Below, in pieces: positions 6,288 through 33,850 of a DNA stretch of 64,000 nt. The position numbers and the translations under genes were made by a program. The notes beneath the pieces are model-generated. The model was not told the origin of the DNA. It did no database searches and saw nothing but the letters and a program-made list of their open reading frames with translations. The first letter of the stretch is position 1; every line of letters begins with the position of its first letter. The DNA comes from Nitrospirota bacterium (lineage in GTDB: Bacteria; Nitrospirota; Thermodesulfovibrionia; UBA6902), in assembly GCA_016214845.1 (NCBI GenBank), contig JACRMS010000037.1, positions 186,001-250,000 of the forward strand, given 5' to 3'.

Positions 6288-7526
6288 ATGAAGAGAAAAC
6301 AACAGCAGCTTTTAAATGAGTTGGCAGAATTGCGTAGACGGGTTGCTGAAATAGAAACGGCAGAAACCCGCGATGTCACCGCACGCAGGCTGGCAGAGGA
6401 CACCGTTGAAGAAGCCCGGAACTACGCTGAGAATATTGTTGAAACAGTGCGTGAACCCCTTGTAGTGCTGGATACGGACTTGAAGATAATATCAGCGAAT
6501 TCTTCTTTTTACCGGACTTTTAAAGTTGCTCCAGGGGATACCGTTGGTCAGTTATTATACGACCTGGGCAACCGGCAATGGGACATTCCTAAGTTGAGGA
6601 CTCTGCTGGAAGAGATCCTTCCCATGAAAACCGAAGTCCTGGACTTTGAAGTTGAACACGGGTTTTTAACGATCGGGCCTCATACGATGCTGCTTAATGC
6701 CCGTCGAATTATACGGGAAAGCGGTCGTTCACACCTGATCCTCCTTGCCATTGAGGACATCACCGCACGCAGGCTGGCAGAGGACAAATTAAAGCGATTG
6801 GCAGAGGAGCTGACACGGTCCAATGATGAACTTGAACACTTTGCCTCTTTAGCCTCGCATGACCTTAAGTCTCCGGTCCTGGCAATAGGGACTGTTTTGA
6901 GGCTGTTTCAGCGACGATACACCGGCAAACTCGATACAGAGGCTGACCAGTTTATTTCTGATGCAATAAAGAGCGCACTCCGTATGGAGATGCTTATCAG
7001 TGATATTCTGGTTTACTCGCGTGCGGGAGCACAAGGGAAAACCTTCGAACCGACTGATTGCTCTGCAGCGCTGGACATCTCACTTGCAAACCTGAAGGAC
7101 GCTGTAGAAAGCAGCGAAGCCGAAATAATCCGCGACACTCTGCCGAAAGTTATGGCTGACCCTATTCAGATGACCCAGTTATTTCAAAACCTCATCGGAA
7201 ATGCCATTAAGTCACATGGTGAAGAGAGACCGCGTATTCACATTTCCGCAAAGCAGATGGAAAAGGAATGGGTCTTCTCTGTCCGCGACAACGGCATCGG
7301 CATTCCCCGGGAACACACAGAAAAAATATTTGAAATATTTCAGCGTGTTAATAAAGATAAATACCCGGGTTCCGGCATCGGACTGGCGATCTGCAAAAAA
7401 ATTGTGGAGCGCCACGGCGGCCGCATCTGGGTGGAGTCAGAGATCGGGAAGGGCTCAACATTTTACTTTACCATCCCGGCCCAGGAAGTGAATAATCGCG
7501 CAGCAGATAAGATTGACAAGCGATAG
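6288..7526 (+). CDS. PAS sensor histidine kinase (HK1)
   Basis: A soluble 412-residue kinase. The order is a short coiled coil (1-45), one PAS domain (about 50-165, containing [11 protein letters not shown]), a second coiled coil, HisKA with the phospho-acceptor in SHDLKSPV (His191), and HATPase_c with the N box near 301, DNGIGIP (from Asp334) and GSGIGLAI. No membrane segment is visible, so the signal is cytoplasmic. The PAS domain is closely related to those of HK2 (14597) and the diguanylate cyclase (16563). No receiver protein lies next to it; the gene downstream is a sigma54 activator with PAS instead of a receiver domain. The start codon has no properly spaced Shine-Dalgarno sequence. 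Confidence 0.88.
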
Positions 7527-10654: not shown

Positions 10655-10719
10655 AGTCAGTGAAATCAGTTGTTATCCTTGCAAGAGGTATAACACAGTC
10701 TAACCGGAAGGAGGATAAT

Positions 10720-10872
10720 ATGCTGTGGACGATCGCTGTGATACTGATAATTCTGTGGCTGCTGGGACTGGTGAGCAGTTACACGATGGGAGGGTTTATT
10801 CACATCCTTCTGGTAATTGCCATAATCATGGTGCTCGTAAACATCATTCAGGGGCGAACACCTTTGGGATAA
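10720..10872 (+). CDS. lmo0937 family membrane protein (copy 1)
   Basis: A 50-residue, almost wholly hydrophobic protein: [20 protein letters not shown] as helix 1, YTMGGFIH as turn, helix 2, and a polar end IIQGRTPLG. This is the lmo0937/DUF5670 pattern, function unknown. GAAGGAGG lies six bases before the ATG at 10720, so this start is preferred to one at 10660. A second copy with nearly the same DNA sequence is at 13003. Confidence 0.85.
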   Translation: MLWTIAVILIILWLLGLVSSYTMGGFIHILLVIAIIMVLVNIIQGRTPLG

Positions 10873-10945
10873 AGGAAAGTCATCAATCCGATTAGACCGG
10901 TAACAGAAAAAAGGAGCAAAACGTTTCAGCTACGAGGAGGCTGCC

Positions 10946-11332: not shown

Positions 11333-13155
<1,823 letters not shown>

Positions 13156-13203
13156 AGGAAGGTTCTTATTCAGCCGGGTTGACGAATTGAAAGAAGGAGC
13201 AAA

Positions 13204-14596: not shown

Positions 14597-16459
14597 ATGT
14601 ATGAAGATATTGTAGAGACAGTTCGCGAACCTCTTATTGTTCTGGATGCAGACCTGAGGGTACTTTCAGCAAACCGCAGTTTCTATAAATTTTTCAGGGT
14701 AACACCTGAGGAAACTATAGGTAATCTGATCTATGACCTCGGGAACCGGCAGTGGGACATTCCCGGCCTTCGGAAGTTGCTTGAGGAGATCCTTCCCGAA
14801 AACAACAAGTTCGATGACTATGAAGTTGAACATATTTTTTCAGGCGTCGGGCACAAAATAATGCTTCTCAATGCCCGCCGTGTCATTCACCTTGAAAAAG
14901 GCCCCCAGATGATCCTCCTCGCTATTGAAGACATTACTGAACGCAGGCGGATGGAAAATGAATTGAAGGATTATGAGGAACGCTTCAGGCGGATGTTCGA
15001 GACCGCAAAGGACGGCCTGTTGCTGATCGATAAACAAAACGGGAAGATAGTTAACGCTAACCCCGCCATCGTGGCGATGCTGGATTATTTTCGCGAGGAG
15101 TTTATTGGAAAACAGCTTAAAGATGTCGGCCTGCTGAAAGACACGGAAAATTTCAGGGAGACTATCCGGGAATTGATTGAGGACGGATTTATCAATTACG
15201 AGGATGTGTTTGCGGAAACCAAACAGGGACAGCTTATTAATGTTGATATACATCTGGTCGACAGGGCGAGGTTCATTCAATGTAACGTGCGTGACATTAC
15301 TGAACGCAAGAAACTGTCAGCGCAACTGCTCCAGTCCCAGAAGATGGAGGCCATAGGCCATCTTGTCGGAGGAATTGCACACGATTTCAACAATATCCTG
15401 ACCGCAATAATCGGCTATGGGAGCCTTCTGAATAACAAGATCGCAGCGGATGACCCATTGCGTGAATATGTTAAACAGATACTCGCCTCATCCGATAGAG
15501 CGGCCAATCTGACACACAGTCTTCTTGCCTACAGCAGAAAGCAGGTGGTTGAGATGAAGCCGGCAGATATTAACAAGATCGTTTATAACATACAGAAGAT
15601 ATTGGACAGGCTCATCGGCGAGGATATTGAATTCAAGATACATATGGCTGCTGAGGAACTGATCGCGAATGTTGACATAGGCCAGATAGAACAGGTTTTG
15701 CTGAATCTTGCAACGAACGCACGGGATGCAATGCCGCATGGAGGAATGTTGACCATAAGTACGGAGCAGGTGCAAATAGACAGCAGCTTTATACGGGCTA
15801 ATGGTTACGGAGAAGCAGGCAATTATGCCGTCCTTTCAGTTGCCGACAACGGGGTCGGAATAGATGAAAAGACAGCAGAGCATATCTTTGAGCCGTTCTT
15901 TACCACAAAAGAGGTCGGCAAAGGAACAGGGCTTGGCCTCGCAATGGTCTACGGCATCATCAAGCAGCACAAGGGTTTCATCAATGTTTACAGCAGGCCC
16001 GGAGAGGGTGCGGTCTTTAAAATATATTTGCCCCTAATGCCGACAAAAGAGGAAATTCCAGAAAAGGCGGAATTGGTCCCTGTCCCCTCCGGGAATGAGA
16101 CAATTCTTTTAGCAGAAGATGATCTGTCTCTCGGTGAAATCTCAAAAATATATCTTGAGAACTATGGTTACAAGGTACTGGATGTGATCAATGGCGAAGA
16201 CGCCTTAAGAGTCTTCTCGAAGAACAGTGACGACATAATGCTTATTGTCACTGATATGATCATGCCGAAGATGCATGGCAATGAAGTATGCGAAAAGGCA
16301 AGGCTGATAAAGCCGGACATAAAATGCCTTTTTATGAGCGGGTACAGCGACGACATTTTAATAATGCGGGGTGTTCTCAAAGAGGGCGTTGATTTTATTC
16401 CCAAGCCATTCATCCCGTATGATCTTATAATAAAAGTCAGAGAGGTTTTGGACAGTTGA
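14597..16459 (+). CDS. Hybrid histidine kinase PAS-PAS-HisKA-HATPase-REC (HK2)
   Basis: A soluble 620-residue hybrid kinase. PAS-1 (about 1-115) contains [11 protein letters not shown] and is a sister of the PAS in HK1 and the cyclase; PAS-2 (about 125-240, [11 protein letters not shown]) is a sister of the PAS in the sigma54 activator. HisKA has HDFNNIL (His262), then HATPase_c ([16 protein letters not shown]), then a C-terminal receiver domain with the acceptor aspartate in [10 protein letters not shown] (Asp553). GAGGAGG precedes the ATG at 14597, so an earlier in-frame start at 14435 inside the DUF1207 gene is rejected. Domain sharing links it to the same signalling module as the activator. 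Confidence 0.9.
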
Positions 16460-16562: not shown

Positions 16563-17507
16563 ATGGAAAGGAATAAAAACAGTAGAGAGGCGAAACGTCT
16601 TCAGGAGGCCCTTGAATTCAGTGATGCGATCATAGCTACGGTCCGGGAGCCTTTGCTGGTGCTCGATAATGAGCTAAGAATAATTACTGCCAACCGTTCC
16701 TTCTACCGGACCTTTCAAGTGGACCCTGAGGAGACTGAGAAGCGGCTGATCTATGACCTGGGAAACCGCCAGTGGGACATTCCCGGATTAAGGGACCTGC
16801 TTGAGAATATCCTGCCGATGAACAACGCCTTTGAGGGTTTTGAAGTGGAACACGATTTTAAAGCCATCGGACGGAAAACAATGTTGTTGAACGCCCGGAA
16901 GATATATAAAGAAACGAACCATACAGAGATGATCTTACTTGCTATTGAAGATATTACTGAACGCAAGAAGGCTGAAGAGCAATTGAAACTTATTGCTTTC
17001 ATGGATGGATTGACCGGTGTTGCCAATCGCCGTCATTTTGATAATACCCTTGATTTAGAATGGCGGCGCGCCATGCGAAGCGCAATATCCTTGTCTCTCA
17101 TTATTATTGATGTTGATTACTTCAAGAATTACAATGACGTCTACGGTCATCTGGCTGGTGATGCCTGCCTGCAAAAGATAGCGCATACGATAAGGGACTC
17201 ATTAAGGAGAGCAGGAAATTTTGTAGCGCGGTACGGCGGTGAAGAATTTACGATCATCCTTCCCGACACTAACGCGGAGGGGGCATACTTATTTGCAGAG
17301 TCTCTGCGAGAGAAGATCGAAAATCTGAATTTTGAGCATGAAGATTCTAAGGCCGGTAAGAATGTAACAGTCAGTATGGGTGTTTCAAGTATTGTCCCTG
17401 ATAAGGACAGGACACAGAATGAACTCATATCCTTAGCTGATAAGGCCCTCTATGAAGCAAAGCAGGGAGGACGAAATCGTGTTGTAAGAGCCTGCGAAGA
17501 ATCTTAA
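16563..17507 (+). CDS. PAS-GGDEF diguanylate cyclase
   Basis: A soluble 314-residue protein: PAS domain (about 15-130, again with [11 protein letters not shown]) and a GGDEF domain (about 145-312) with an intact active site GGEEF (225-229), predicting c-di-GMP synthesis. The inhibitory I-site position reads RAGN instead of RxxD, so product inhibition is probably lost. No Shine-Dalgarno sequence is evident. A bidirectional terminator follows at 17555. It completes a set of three proteins that share one PAS type but have kinase, hybrid-kinase and cyclase outputs. Confidence 0.88.
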   Translation: MERNKNSREAKRLQEALEFSDAIIATVREPLLVLDNELRIITANRSFYRTFQVDPEETEKRLIYDLGNRQWDIPGLRDLLENILPMNNAFEGFEVEHDFKAIGRKTMLLNARKIYKETNHTEMILLAIEDITERKKAEEQLKLIAFMDGLTGVANRRHFDNTLDLEWRRAMRSAISLSLIIIDVDYFKNYNDVYGHLAGDACLQKIAHTIRDSLRRAGNFVARYGGEEFTIILPDTNAEGAYLFAESLREKIENLNFEHEDSKAGKNVTVSMGVSSIVPDKDRTQNELISLADKALYEAKQGGRNRVVRACEES

Positions 17508-19197: not shown

Positions 19198-19237
19198 GCT
19201 GTTAGCGATTAGTAATTAAGACCAAACTGCTAACAGC
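19198..19237. repeat. Intergenic inverted repeat (TTAGC type)
   Basis: GCTGTTAGC (about 19199-19207) and GCTAACAGC (19229-19237) face each other in the gap between metV and folD, surrounded by degenerate TTAGC/GCTTAA copies. A related palindrome, CTGATAGCTATCAG, lies at 38687. Confidence 0.6.
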
Positions 19238-19259
19238 TTAGTGCTTAATGCTTAACGCG

Positions 19260-20168
19260 TTATTTCACTCCCGCATGTATTTTAGCCGATTTGACGGTGT
19301 TTTTCATAAGCATGGTGATGGTCATCGGCCCGACGCCGCCGGGCACTGGAGTAATGGCCCCGGCAATTTCTTTTGCCGCATCGAAGTCTACGTCTCCCTT
19401 GAGTATGGGGACCATCTTGCCGGTCTTCTCACTCTTCTTTTCGCCGACGCGGTTTACTCCTACATCAATTACACAGGAGCCCGGTTTGATCCATTCAGGT
19501 TTTACAAGGCCGGGAACACCAGCAGCAACGATAAGGATGTCAGCACGTTTGCAATGGGCCTCAAGATTCTTTGTCCCTGTGTGAACGACAGTGACTGTGG
19601 AATTTGCGCCTTTGCCTTTCTGCAGCATGATGTTTGCGATGGGTTTGCCTACGATATTCGAGCGTCCTACGACCACGACCTCTGCTCCGTTGGTATCAAA
19701 ACCGGAGCGCACGATCAGCTCCTGAATTCCGGCAGGGGTGCATGGAAGGAACTTTACTTCGCTGCCGCCTATCATAAGGCGGCCGACATTTACCGGATGA
19801 AAACCGTCTACGTCCTTGTCAGGGTCTATGGCGTTGAGCACCTTCTTTTCATCAATGTGCTTTGGGATCGGAAGCTGAACAAGGATGCCGTGTATCTTCG
19901 GGTCCTTATTGTATTTATCAATGAGATTCAGCAGATCAGCTTCTGAAATATTGTCCTGCTGATCATCCTGAATTGAATTGAATCCAATCTCATGCGCGGT
20001 CTTTTGTTTAGCCGTAACATAGCTGACCGATGCCGGGTTTTTGCCCACCAGTATTGTAACCAGTCCTGGCACGATGCCGTGTTTTTCCTTCAACTCTGTA
20101 ACTTCTTTTTTAAGCTCTTCACGAATCTGTGCGGCGATCTCCGTGCCGCTGATTATTTTTGCAGACAT
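19260..20168 (-). CDS. folD: Bifunctional methylene-THF dehydrogenase / methenyl-THF cyclohydrolase
   Basis: A 302-residue FolD with the family motifs SYVTAKQKTAHEIGF (catalytic Lys), QLPIPKHIDEKKVLNAIDP, VVGRSNIVGKP of the NADP site and ITPVPGGVGPMTITMLMKNT at the C-terminus. It interconverts methylene-, methenyl- and formyl-THF, the steps directly before MetF/MetV. ACAAGGAGG precedes the ATG. Position and strand place it in a C1 (methyl-branch) operon. Confidence 0.95.
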   Translation of the reverse strand: MSAKIISGTEIAAQIREELKKEVTELKEKHGIVPGLVTILVGKNPASVSYVTAKQKTAHEIGFNSIQDDQQDNISEADLLNLIDKYNKDPKIHGILVQLPIPKHIDEKKVLNAIDPDKDVDGFHPVNVGRLMIGGSEVKFLPCTPAGIQELIVRSGFDTNGAEVVVVGRSNIVGKPIANIMLQKGKGANSTVTVVHTGTKNLEAHCKRADILIVAAGVPGLVKPEWIKPGSCVIDVGVNRVGEKKSEKTGKMVPILKGDVDFDAAKEIAGAITPVPGGVGPMTITMLMKNTVKSAKIHAGVK

Positions 20169-20184
20169 AAAATTCCTCCTTGTA

Positions 20185-20252
20185 TTTAGGGATTGGGGGT
20201 CAGGGGTTGGGGGTTAGTTTTTACTAATCCCTAACCCCCAATCCCTAATCCC
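20185..20252. repeat. G-rich inverted repeat with G-quadruplex motif
   Basis: The left arm (20189-20213) has four G runs with loops of 3, 3 and 2 bases, a textbook quadruplex pattern; the right arm (20224-20252) is its near-complement CCCTAACCCCCAATCCCTAA. The element lies between folD and folE. A related copy is inserted in the 5-FCL gene at 21087-21155. Confidence 0.75.
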
Positions 20253-20808
20253 TTCTTTTTATTAGTTCCAGCAATTCCATCCTGGTCGATTCTTTCGTCC
20301 GGAATATTCCTCTGACTGCTGATGTTATTGTGCGGGCATTCGGCTTTTTAATCCCCCTCATAGAGAGGCATAAATGTTCGGCGTCTATGATGACCATTGC
20401 GCCTTTGGGTTTTAATTTATCCATTATCATGTCAGCAAGCTGTGTGGTCAGGCGCTCCTGGACCTGCGGCCTCTTTGCGAACATCTCGACTGCTTTTGCA
20501 AGTTCGCTCAGGCCGACGATCTTACCGCCTGAGGGGATATACGCGACATGCGCCTTGCCTATGAAAGGCAGAAGGTGGTGCTCACACACTGAGTAAAAAG
20601 GAATGTCCTTCAGCAGCACCATCTCATCGTGGCTTTCGCCCTCGATGGGTTTTAATAATTCCTCTGCCGGGGTTTCTAATCCCGCGAATATCTCCTCGTA
20701 CAGTTTTGCAATACGAGAGGGCGTGTCCTTCAGTCCCGCCCTTTCAGCATCTTCGCCGATGCCTTCGAGAATCAGCCTTACGCCTTTTTCAATTTTCTTT
20801 CTGTCCAT
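20245..20808 (-). CDS. folE: GTP cyclohydrolase I
   Basis: A 187-residue FolE with the full signature: [20 protein letters not shown] (zinc Cys and two His), [20 protein letters not shown], and the second zinc Cys in [10 protein letters not shown]. It makes dihydroneopterin triphosphate from GTP, the first step of folate synthesis, and so supplies the cofactor used by the neighbouring C1 genes. The 3' end lies inside the C-rich arm of the repeat at 20185-20252, so the last residues (ELIKRRD) border repeat DNA. Confidence 0.95.
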
Positions 20809-20817
20809 ATCTAATTA

Positions 20818-20965
20818 AACCACGGAGGCACTGAGACACAGAGAATAATATTCGTCCACAGATTACCCAGATTTTCACAGATTTATTAGGAAGCTTTTTC
20901 TTAATCTGTGTCATCTGCGAAATCTGTGGATTTCTTTCTCTGTGCCTCCGTGTCTCTGTGGTTAA
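20818..20965. repeat. ACAGAGGCAC-type dispersed inverted repeat
   Basis: AACCACGGAGGCACTGAGAC at the left and its near-complement TCTGTGCCTCCGTGTCTCTG at the right enclose CCACAGATT/AATCTGTG blocks. Half of it forms the 3' end of the 5-FCL gene. A related element is at 33733-33850. Confidence 0.75.
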
Positions 20966-21590
20966 TCTCCTTTTTTCTGCAAACAATTGTTCTTTTCTCT
21001 GTTATTATCCTGTCCATCTTTACATCATGCTTTTCACTTGGTATCTCAGAAGCGATCTGCTCTTCAAAGGCAAGCGCAATGAGAACGGGTTTTGGGGGTT
21101 GGGGGTTTGGGATTAGTTTTTCTTTTCTGACCCCTGATCCCTGGTCCCTAATCCCTGAAAACAGCTTGTCATAATATCCTGCGCCGTATCCGAGACGGTT
21201 TCCGTTTTTATCGAAACCCGCGCCTGGAACGATCACGATATCAATATCGTTCAATTTTCTTTCACTTGCCGTTCTAATCACCGGCTCTGGAATCCCCATG
21301 TAGCCCGGTTCAATTTCGGAAATATTATTTATCGCAAAAAGCCTTAACATTTCCTTTTTGTTTTCAACCCTCGGCAAGACCACATTCTTTTTTAATTTCA
21401 ATGTATGCGCTATACACGTCATTGTGTCTACCTCGCTTCTGAATGAAGCGTAAAACAACATGCTCTTTGCCTTCTTGAAGTCAGCCGACGCATAAAGTCT
21501 TTTCCTTATGGCCGCCTCTTTTACCTTCTTTTCCTGAAGCCCGATACGGTTTCTTTTTTTTAAAAGTCTTTCTCTGAGGGCCTTCTTCAA
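20901..21590 (-). CDS. 5-formyltetrahydrofolate cyclo-ligase, altered by repeats
   Basis: A 229-residue protein. Residues 1-143 and the LIALAFEEQIASEIP...DRIITEKRTIVC block are normal 5-FCL (MTHFS), including PRVENKKEMLRL and the GYGAGYYDKLFSG loop. It converts 5-formyl-THF to methenyl-THF. Two parts are foreign: about 23 residues (RDQGSGVRKEKL...PQPPKP) encoded by a G-rich repeat at 21087-21155, inserted in frame before LIALAFEEQ, and the last 23 residues (EINHRDTEAQRKKSTDFADD) encoded by the ACAGAGGCAC repeat. Whether the enzyme still folds is open; the insert sits in a surface loop. It overlaps cooC by four bases. Confidence 0.85.
   Translation of the reverse strand: MKKALRERLLKKRNRIGLQEKKVKEAAIRKRLYASADFKKAKSMLFYASFRSEVDTMTCIAHTLKLKKNVVLPRVENKKEMLRLFAINNISEIEPGYMGIPEPVIRTASERKLNDIDIVIVPGAGFDKNGNRLGYGAGYYDKLFSGIRDQGSGVRKEKLIPNPQPPKPVLIALAFEEQIASEIPSEKHDVKMDRIITEKRTIVCRKKEINHRDTEAQRKKSTDFADDTD
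21087..21155. repeat. G-rich repeat inside the 5-FCL coding region
   Basis: About 69 bp, a multiple of three, with four G runs (21087-21111) and a downstream C-rich arm (CCCCTGATCCCTGGTCCCTA). It is the same family as the intergenic element at 20185-20252. Its borders are estimated from where normal 5-FCL protein similarity stops and resumes. Confidence 0.7.
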
Positions 21591-22360
21591 ATTGCTTTTT
21601 CCAGGTTGTCCTTGATAGCTTTTGCCTCGTCAAGGGTCTTTTGAGATGCCTTATAAGACGGCAGGCCGTTAATATCCAGTTCCATGATACTTTCGTTAAA
21701 GCTTATCTGGCCTATAAAGTCCATATCACTCAGGTTGTTTTTAATGAAAAGGACATCCTCTTCTTTCCTGACCTTGTTGGCGACGATAAATACCTTTTTT
21801 ACACCGAGGCCTTTTGCGAGACTTTTCACAGCAACCGCCGTCTGGATGCTCCTCTGTCCCGGCTCAACAACAACAATGAACGCGTTGACTCCCTCGGCTG
21901 TACCTCTTGTGAAGTGCTCTATGCCCGCCTCCATGTCAACGATGACAACCTCATCTCTTTCTACGATAAGGTGTTTTAAGAGCCTTCTCAACAGCGCGTG
22001 TTCAGGGCAATAACAGCCTGATGCCGCGAACTTTGATTTACCCATCACGAGCAGGGTGATATTGTTGATTTTAAAGCCGAAGCCTTCGGGGATGTCATCC
22101 ACCCTCGGGTTGATCTTGAATATGCCCCCGCTGGTCCCGGGCTTTGCGCCGGTCCTTTCCTCGATTAACTCCGCTATCTCGGCAATGGGCCTTATCTTTT
22201 CTATTTCATTCCTTGAGATGCCGAGGGCTGATGCAAAGTTCGCGTCGGGGTCCGCGTCCACCGCAATCACTTTTTTCCCTTCCGTTGAATATAAATGACT
22301 TAACAGGGCGGAGACAGTGGTCTTTCCAACTCCGCCTTTTCCTGTAATTGCGATTTTCAT
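21587..22360 (-). CDS. cooC: CooC-type nickel-insertion ATPase for CO dehydrogenase
   Basis: A 257-residue MinD/ArsA-like P-loop ATPase with deviant Walker A GKGGVGKTT (7-15), DADPDANFASALGI, the metal-binding CxC in SGCYCPEHALL, and VDMEAGIEHFTRGTAEGV. CooC proteins insert nickel into the C-cluster of CO dehydrogenase/acetyl-CoA synthase. No CODH gene is in the window, so this is indirect evidence that one lies elsewhere. It is first in the minus-strand cluster cooC-fcl-folE-folD-metV-metF and has a recognisable promoter at 22461-22490. Confidence 0.85.
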   Translation of the reverse strand: MKIAITGKGGVGKTTVSALLSHLYSTEGKKVIAVDADPDANFASALGISRNEIEKIRPIAEIAELIEERTGAKPGTSGGIFKINPRVDDIPEGFGFKINNITLLVMGKSKFAASGCYCPEHALLRRLLKHLIVERDEVVIVDMEAGIEHFTRGTAEGVNAFIVVVEPGQRSIQTAVAVKSLAKGLGVKKVFIVANKVRKEEDVLFIKNNLSDMDFIGQISFNESIMELDINGLPSYKASQKTLDEAKAIKDNLEKAI

Positions 22361-22460
22361 GTGAAATTTACCTTCAAATCATCAGGAGCGTTCTGTATGT
22401 TGTATCAAACAAGCTAAAGACCAAAATGCCTTTCGGGGATATTGCTCCAAAAGAGTAAAA

Positions 22461-22490
22461 ATACTACCATTTAAACAGGGGCTTTGTCAA
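22461..22490 (-). promoter_or_regulatory. Sigma70-type promoter of the cooC cluster
   Basis: Read on the minus strand: TTGACA (22485-22490), an 18-bp spacer and TAGTAT (22461-22466). Predicted +1 is near 22454, giving a leader of about 94 bases before cooC. Confidence 0.6.
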
Positions 22491-22565
22491 AAATTTGCTA
22501 TAAATTTGTGCTGGTTTTATAATTTAATTAAAGGTTTTAATAAAAAGAGACGAATAACGATAGTG

Positions 22566-33733: not shown

Positions 33734-33850
33734 ACACAGAGGCACTGAGACACGGAAATGATTAAATTTAATTAATCCACAGATTTCACAGATGACACAG
33801 AAAAAGTTTTTCAATAAATCTGTGCAATCTGCGAAATCTGCGGACAAAAA
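33733..33850. repeat. ACAGAGGCAC-type dispersed repeat
   Basis: ACACAGAGGCACTGAGACAC, then ATCCACAGATTTCACAGATG, a short spacer and AATCTGCGAAATCTGCGGAC. It is the same family as 20818-20965 and fills the gap between fmt and the PASTA gene. Confidence 0.75.

Follow-up and report, generated by a model that had tools for sequence, protein, structure and literature searches.

Two dispersed repeats supply part of the coding sequence of a conserved folate enzyme in the window, as we call the whole 64-kb stretch of DNA analysed here. One of them, element B, lies in frame within the gene for 5-formyltetrahydrofolate cyclo-ligase (5-FCL, also MTHFS), and the other, element A, encodes the end of the protein. 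Element B occurs in frame in many other conserved genes of the same genome, loops of such genes are occupied recurrently among related species, and the repeat families that occupy them are species specific. We propose, with a probability of about 85%, that dispersed heptamer elements have been copied into genes, where they would be tolerated in surface loops that are then refilled by further elements, and that the 5-FCL tail arose by the opening of a reading frame. On this reading, repeat DNA that looks selfish would repeatedly have been turned into protein sequence of core enzymes.

Two repeats in the 5-FCL gene

The 5-FCL reading frame (20901–21590, minus strand) has a TTG start and encodes 229 residues. 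It matches PF01812 (E = 3.2e-41, 141.7 bits against a cut-off of 27) and the NCBIfam equivalog TIGR02727 (160.3 bits against a curated cut-off of 84.9), and a Foldseek comparison of its AlphaFold2 model with solved 5-FCL structures returned 2jcb (E = 2.7e-17, TMt 0.87). By profile and by model, the product is assigned as 5-FCL with a predicted MTHFS fold. Downstream lie folE, encoding GTP cyclohydrolase I (20245–20808, minus strand; PF01227, 5.8e-72), and folD; upstream, a gene for a P-loop ATPase of the CbiA/ParA group (21587–22360, minus strand; PF01656, 2.2e-17) overlaps the 5-FCL start by 4 nt. Codons outside the insert and tail gave dN/dS values of 0.11–0.17 in seven comparisons, and the host gene is thus under purifying selection. 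The mean pLDDT of the modelled protein is 85; confidence is good in the core and weak in the tail. No Rfam family reached the gathering threshold within window positions 19200–22500, and a known RNA was rejected on that ground as an explanation of the repeats.

The original prediction placed a G-rich 69-bp repeat in frame in the middle of this gene, and such a repeat is indeed present. It occupies 21087–21155 (minus strand) by sequence coordinates, 69 nt in frame encoding residues 146–168 (GIRDQGSGVRKEKLIPNPQPPKP), and is assigned to element B by nhmmer (E = 2.1e-18 in an 850-kb genome sample) and by covariance model R1 (E = 1.1e-16), the 5-FCL copy being itself among the seeds of both models. 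In element B generally, about four heptamers of the GGGATTA/GGGATCA type make up a G-rich arm, which a short A-rich spacer separates from an arm of C-rich heptamers, and the copy in 5-FCL follows this layout. Both repeats also lie between nearby genes, as had been claimed: element A at approximately 33776–33844, and element B in the folD/folE spacer (20185–20256, minus strand; covariance model R1, 3.1e-20). The latter copy is predicted to form a strong hairpin (fold z −4.5), whereas the copy in 5-FCL has lost hairpin folding (z +2.2). In the structure model, the insert is a low-confidence coil (lowest block mean pLDDT 44), preceded by a helix (139–145) and followed by a strand (169–173). The intact palindrome of the folD/folE spacer sits about 900 bp or less from the insert, and four of the six canonical G-quadruplex motifs in the window fall within two B copies (20189–20256 and 21087–21155), one per strand in each.

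Element A, located by genome BLAST in the 5-FCL/folE spacer (20815–20965, no strand assigned), is a composite nested palindrome with outer CACAGAGR arms of 8-bp period and inner CACAGATTA arms of 9-bp period. Its fold z is −8.3 for 20820–20965, and that of its inner core (20855–20930, plus strand; nhmmer 1.2e-19) is −6.5; BLAST against its own genome gave 59 matches, both strands counted. This element encodes the last 20 codons of 5-FCL (NHRDTEAQRKKSTDFADDTD) and the stop (20901–20963, minus strand), so the tail and stop were rightly ascribed to a repeat, at 20 residues rather than the slightly longer 23 first claimed. In the nearest relative, G006, an A element stands at the same place, directly after the TGA stop of 5-FCL, and a 1-nt length difference together with one substitution carry the window's 5-FCL frame into the element. 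Because the G006 stop precedes its A element, the tail appears to be a spacer element made coding by small changes. G004 has no element after 5-FCL, the stop running into the folE start, and G009 and G005 carry other inverted repeats at the tail position. Among the best 30 orthologues, only one other (G008) has an A-type tail, which derives from a different stretch. The wider claim that mobile palindromes create protein sequence in a folate enzyme holds in that the insert is a copy of repeat B; the tail, for its part, does not stem from an insertion into coding DNA, and mobility of the elements is suggested by their distribution.

Across sister species, the 5-FCL/folE spacer (L288–L321) holds a different inverted repeat in several cases and none in G004. 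Element A was also considered as a gene-inserting element and rejected: in the genome sample its copies lie in spacers and small ORFs and reach larger genes only at their ends.

Element B and heptamer arrays across the genome

BLAST of the 5-FCL B stretch against its own genome gave seven matches, a profile built from seven B copies located 18 places across 850 kb of genome sequence, and a covariance model of 15 copies gave 75 matches, merging into 40 places, across the 3.45-Mb genome. The matched places span 38–106 nt, mostly near 70. Seventeen of the 40 lie inside 15 long genes, two at N termini and 21 elsewhere, and a search for other in-frame copies, put forward as a check on the original prediction, has in this way uncovered a larger phenomenon than was claimed. 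Fourteen of the 15 long genes have clear Pfam or NCBIfam family matches, encoding PurL, QueC (two copies), two P-type ATPases (one with two copies), MqnC, MurD, CarB, 5-FCL, a NifE-NifN fusion, an AcrB-type pump, KdsB, CbiD, CbiET and HolB; the remaining ORF, C6:28422, has only a weak match, to a biotin-protein-ligase N-terminal family. The B copy of the NifE-NifN fusion (G000:C39:69280-69374, L179) lies at the NifE-NifN junction. Arrays from at least four repeat families, namely B and those with CAGAACA, CTCGTCA and CGTCACC units, lie in PurL (G000:C16:175137-179237, L096; 1366 aa).

Conceptual translation of most in-gene copies gives GIRDQG(L/S)G..PNPQPP or a variant. The forward frame is open in 16 of the 17 in-gene copies versus three of the 21 copies elsewhere, and any frame at all is open in four of those 21; since openness within genes is forced by membership of an ORF, the informative number is the low openness elsewhere. 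The best-scoring strand is the gene strand in 15 of the 17, a count that we weigh lightly: it is partly circular, eight of the 15 having served, in the coding reading, to train the model. Folding is poorer in the in-gene copies than in the other B copies (p = 0.026). Element B is patchy among genomes, found in 32 of 61 at E 1e-3 and, across the phylum, in 13 of 148 at E 1e-6 (own genome included in both).

Tandem heptamers are abundant beyond element B. In 1.19 Mb of the genome, a sample that includes stretches chosen around B copies, the strict score returned 94 tandem segments of period 7, 29 of period 14, 10 of period 8 and at most three for each of the other periods of 4–13; a Markov-4 simulated genome held no array of period 4–14 at the same score. 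The repeats are thus far more numerous than chance would give. Period-7 density is uneven: in 790 kb of four large contigs it is 52 per Mb, and in 0.2-Mb comparison stretches it is 5 per Mb in G004 (same genus), 90 in G052 and 0 in both G022 and G059. The stretch from G052 (C1:100001-300000, L248–L257), which belongs to another family in the class, has almost no element B. Within the 790 kb, where 85.5% of bases were masked as coding on gene calls made from codon score and not curated, the 74 period-7/8 arrays divide into 43 within coding-scored ORFs, 13 at edges and 18 in intergenic DNA. The arrays are thus under-represented in genes yet mostly within them, genes being somewhat avoided but far from closed.

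Two Y1_Tnp genes (PF01797) were found (G000:C30:130919 and C17:46149; L246 and L247), neither with a B copy or a period-7/8 array within about 3 kb. A RAYT-driven REP was rejected on this basis, and no mobility gene was linked to the elements, as judged from the roughly 3 kb around each of the two.

Recurrent filling of enzyme loops

A search for 5-FCL gave matches in 55 of 61 genomes, and the best 30 orthologues were aligned across the loop, taken as the stretch between YYDKLLS and IALAFEEQ. Element B (23.9 bits or more) occupies this loop in 10 of the 30, the window included, and other heptamer arrays occupy it in two, GGGCAAG in G003 and GGCAGAG in G006; the other 18 loops, 10–19 aa long, showed neither a B match nor any repeat array. 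Orthologues that lack the repeats have neither the insert nor the tail, in agreement with a repeat origin for both; the outcome named beforehand as refuting the original prediction, an equal insert and tail in organisms free of the repeats, was not observed. The B model, trained on the window's genome alone, matches the 5-FCL loops of G034, from another genus, and G038, from another family, and an independent scan of named genomes found a deeper relative, L336, with its own GVRGQGS loop. All 30 frames pass through the loop without a stop. In a 5-FCL tree built without loop and tail, the insert state requires a minimum of five changes, of which well-supported branches force at least four. A single clade of insert carriers was rejected by an AU test (p-AU 0.0006), the group having been named after the tree was first seen. 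The 5-FCL loop has been filled more than once.

Orthologues of QueC and MurD were searched for in 41 genomes each, and 30 loci of each were read. Their loops hold many different period-7 or period-8 arrays, among them the B, KLQVTSY, SEVRSQK, LVTRHSS, FNLQPST, HHASCIM and SNTPTLQH types, and the loops that could be located read through without a stop. The QueC loops of a single genus contain several unrelated repeat families. By a mechanical count, arrays are concentrated in the loops of 5-FCL and QueC. The 1,722 nt of 5-FCL loop hold 14 period-7 arrays, spread over 11 of the 30 genes, and the 17,511 nt outside hold none of period 7 and two of period 8. QueC has 34 period-7 and seven period-8 arrays in 4,629 nt of loop (17 of the 29 genes with a located loop), with none of either period in 18,471 nt outside. 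MurD has 19 period-7 arrays in 2,382 nt of loop (13 of 30 genes) and 37 in 43,233 nt outside, so the loop as defined is not its only site.

A single ancient insertion, inherited vertically with many losses and kept similar by gene conversion with dispersed copies, is the alternative that survives best, although we regard it as unlikely. It would account for the codon-boundary junction shared by most carriers of the 5-FCL insert, for the (V/F)LIALAF flank common to most of them and for the (T/C)AAAGAAA spacer that the G003 and G006 arrays retain after a differing heptamer arm. The five required changes and the AU result speak against it and led us to reject a single ancestral insertion in 5-FCL; a different loop of 16–17 aa in most f1 genera between the carrier clades, the separate loop of L336 and the unrelated families in the QueC loops of one genus weigh in the same direction.

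Turning to the identity of the units, GGGCAAG doublets, counted as overlapping matches, number 59 in G003 (its 5-FCL loop included), 21 in G034, eight in G004, one in G038 and none in G000, G006 or G008. GAAGTCA doublets number 74 in G006, 41 in G008, 29 in G000 and two in G003, and copies lie inside the G006 QueC loop and the G008 MurD loop. The occupying heptamer differs between species and can match a family dispersed in that species.

Slightly less probable than an ancient insertion is retention of the inserts for a function, for example translational control by an mRNA G-quadruplex or a protein contact. In its favour are the G-quadruplex motifs, since the two strands of the two B copies account for four of the six canonical ones in the window, and the repeated refilling of the same loop; however, the inserts differ freely from one species to the next in unit sequence and in length, and some close relatives have no insert. 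Replication slippage in situ, building heptamer arrays separately in each loop without movement, is very improbable: heptamers are, in the available descriptions, the commonest longer simple repeat in many bacteria (PMC4692102, PMC4679880), but wherever this was tested here, the loop unit equals the one dispersed in that species. Moreover, the spacer and paired C-rich arm of intergenic copies are present in B loops too. No better placed than slippage is the absence of the insert from the protein through ribosome skipping or RNA removal, after the manner of the mobile bypassing elements of yeast mitochondria: it suits G-rich or hairpin DNA within essential genes and the low model confidence of insert and tail, but a skipped element needs neither frame nor openness, and all 30 5-FCL frames and the located QueC and MurD loops are free of stops, against four open copies among the 21 B copies outside genes.

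Proposed origin and relation to known repeats

We favour the copying of dispersed heptamer elements into tolerant loops, and the process may be envisaged as follows. The genome harbours a large population of short dispersed elements in many families. Typically, three to five tandem heptamers, at times octamers, form a purine-rich array, and a short spacer links this to a pyrimidine-rich one; complementary units in both arms make the element a palindrome, as in B. Copies would land all over the genome, and within genes selection would retain those that are in frame, stop-free and in tolerant surface loops, with gene-breaking copies removed. Retained copies are presumably translated as a hydrophilic, near-neutral coil. 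Because a loop that tolerates one insert should tolerate others, the same loop would be refilled in each species by the family then abundant. In 5-FCL, such filling would have produced the 23-residue loop; the tail would have a separate origin, an element A just behind the stop becoming coding once small changes opened the frame. We infer that a copying machinery acts on the elements, that the inserts are translated and that they are neutral rather than beneficial.

The length of the unit bears on this process: as seven and three are coprime, a tandem array encodes a single repeating heptapeptide in whichever frame it is read. Openness is helped by this property and not guaranteed, because TTA units create TAG in one phase. 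A stronger version, that period 7 is open in every frame, proved half true, given the TAG that TTA-ended units produce in one phase and the 18 of 21 non-gene copies without an open forward frame.

More tentatively, and with the balance somewhat against it, fixed loops in Thermodesulfovibrionia might be standing landing pads, written and overwritten by changing heptamer families that some copying process, attributable to no described transposase, spreads or rewrites. If so, the exchange of one unit for another at a single codon position among sister species (GGGATCA, GGGCAAG and GGCAGAG in 5-FCL) would make this a distinct and fast route from selfish repeats to new segments of core enzymes.

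In-frame palindromes have been described in Rickettsia, Wolbachia and Methanocaldococcus jannaschii (PMC10969869, PMC2229807, PMC2996958). The Rickettsia palindromic elements (RPE), as far as the available accounts describe them, are likewise dispersed palindromes of several families, lying between genes and in frame in conserved housekeeping genes (PMC10969869, PMC2229807), and element B shares this in-frame insertion in conserved protein genes (17 of 40 places). RPE are given as 105–146 bp long (PMC2229807), against 38–106 nt for B matches, and belong to Rickettsia, whereas the close relatives of the present genome are Nitrospirota, Thermodesulfovibrionia. As to the long stable stem-loop of RPE, the intergenic B copy folds strongly (z −4.5) and the 5-FCL copy does not (z +2.2). 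Unlike RPE, compared here by description, the present elements have tandem-heptamer arms and many coexisting families, and one loop holds different families in sister species. The coding palindromes of Wolbachia and M. jannaschii, also known to us by description and from different organisms, similarly supply palindromic in-frame codons in housekeeping genes (PMC2996958).

A second likeness is to the heptamer repeats of Xanthomonas, Nostoc and Beggiatoaceae, in the available descriptions dispersed 7-nt units, some G-rich and at times in inverted pairs. The Xanthomonas and Nostoc repeats GGGAATC and GGGGAYT are reported as under-represented on the coding strand of ORFs (PMC4692102), and the TAACTGA repeats of Beggiatoaceae as chiefly intergenic, with translation into a repeating seven-residue cycle noted (PMC4679880). 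The excess of tandem 7-nt repeats over other periods that characterizes heptameric simple repeats is found here as well. Of the 74 arrays here, 43 fall within coding-scored ORFs, many of them in conserved enzymes, so genes hold most arrays while still being under-represented. REP/RAYT systems and MITEs are comparable, as described, in being small dispersed inverted repeats without genes of their own (PMC3733652, PMC10969869). MITEs are marked by terminal inverted repeats with a target-site duplication; the arms of element B are inverted. The 15-copy B consensus differs from REP in having no GTAG/CGTC foot, and neither Y1 transposase gene has a B copy or period-7/8 array within about 3 kb.

The present case joins coding palindromes with heptameric tandem repeats, and RPE are the closest known kind. 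We found no report of in-frame heptamer palindromes in Nitrospirota in the open-access literature, covered by titles and the starts of abstracts (most subscription papers lay outside this scope). Protein-coding palindromes, known from Rickettsia, Wolbachia and a methanogen, occur here in uncultured members of a distant phylum, built simply from heptamers and present in many families and many core enzymes. The sister species form a natural replacement series at one site, so the passage of non-coding mobile DNA into tolerated protein is directly testable. Such elements would also explain odd low-complexity loops and tails that await annotators of these genomes.

Contigs related to the window are named Nitrospirae, Thermodesulfovibrionia and similar, and come mostly from metagenome assemblies, many of them from groundwater. 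Elsewhere in the window are direct repeats of 152 nt (6552–6703, 14726–14877 and 16746–16897) and 173 nt (10708–10880 and 12991–13163), at 68–88% identity, which are probably homologous domains.
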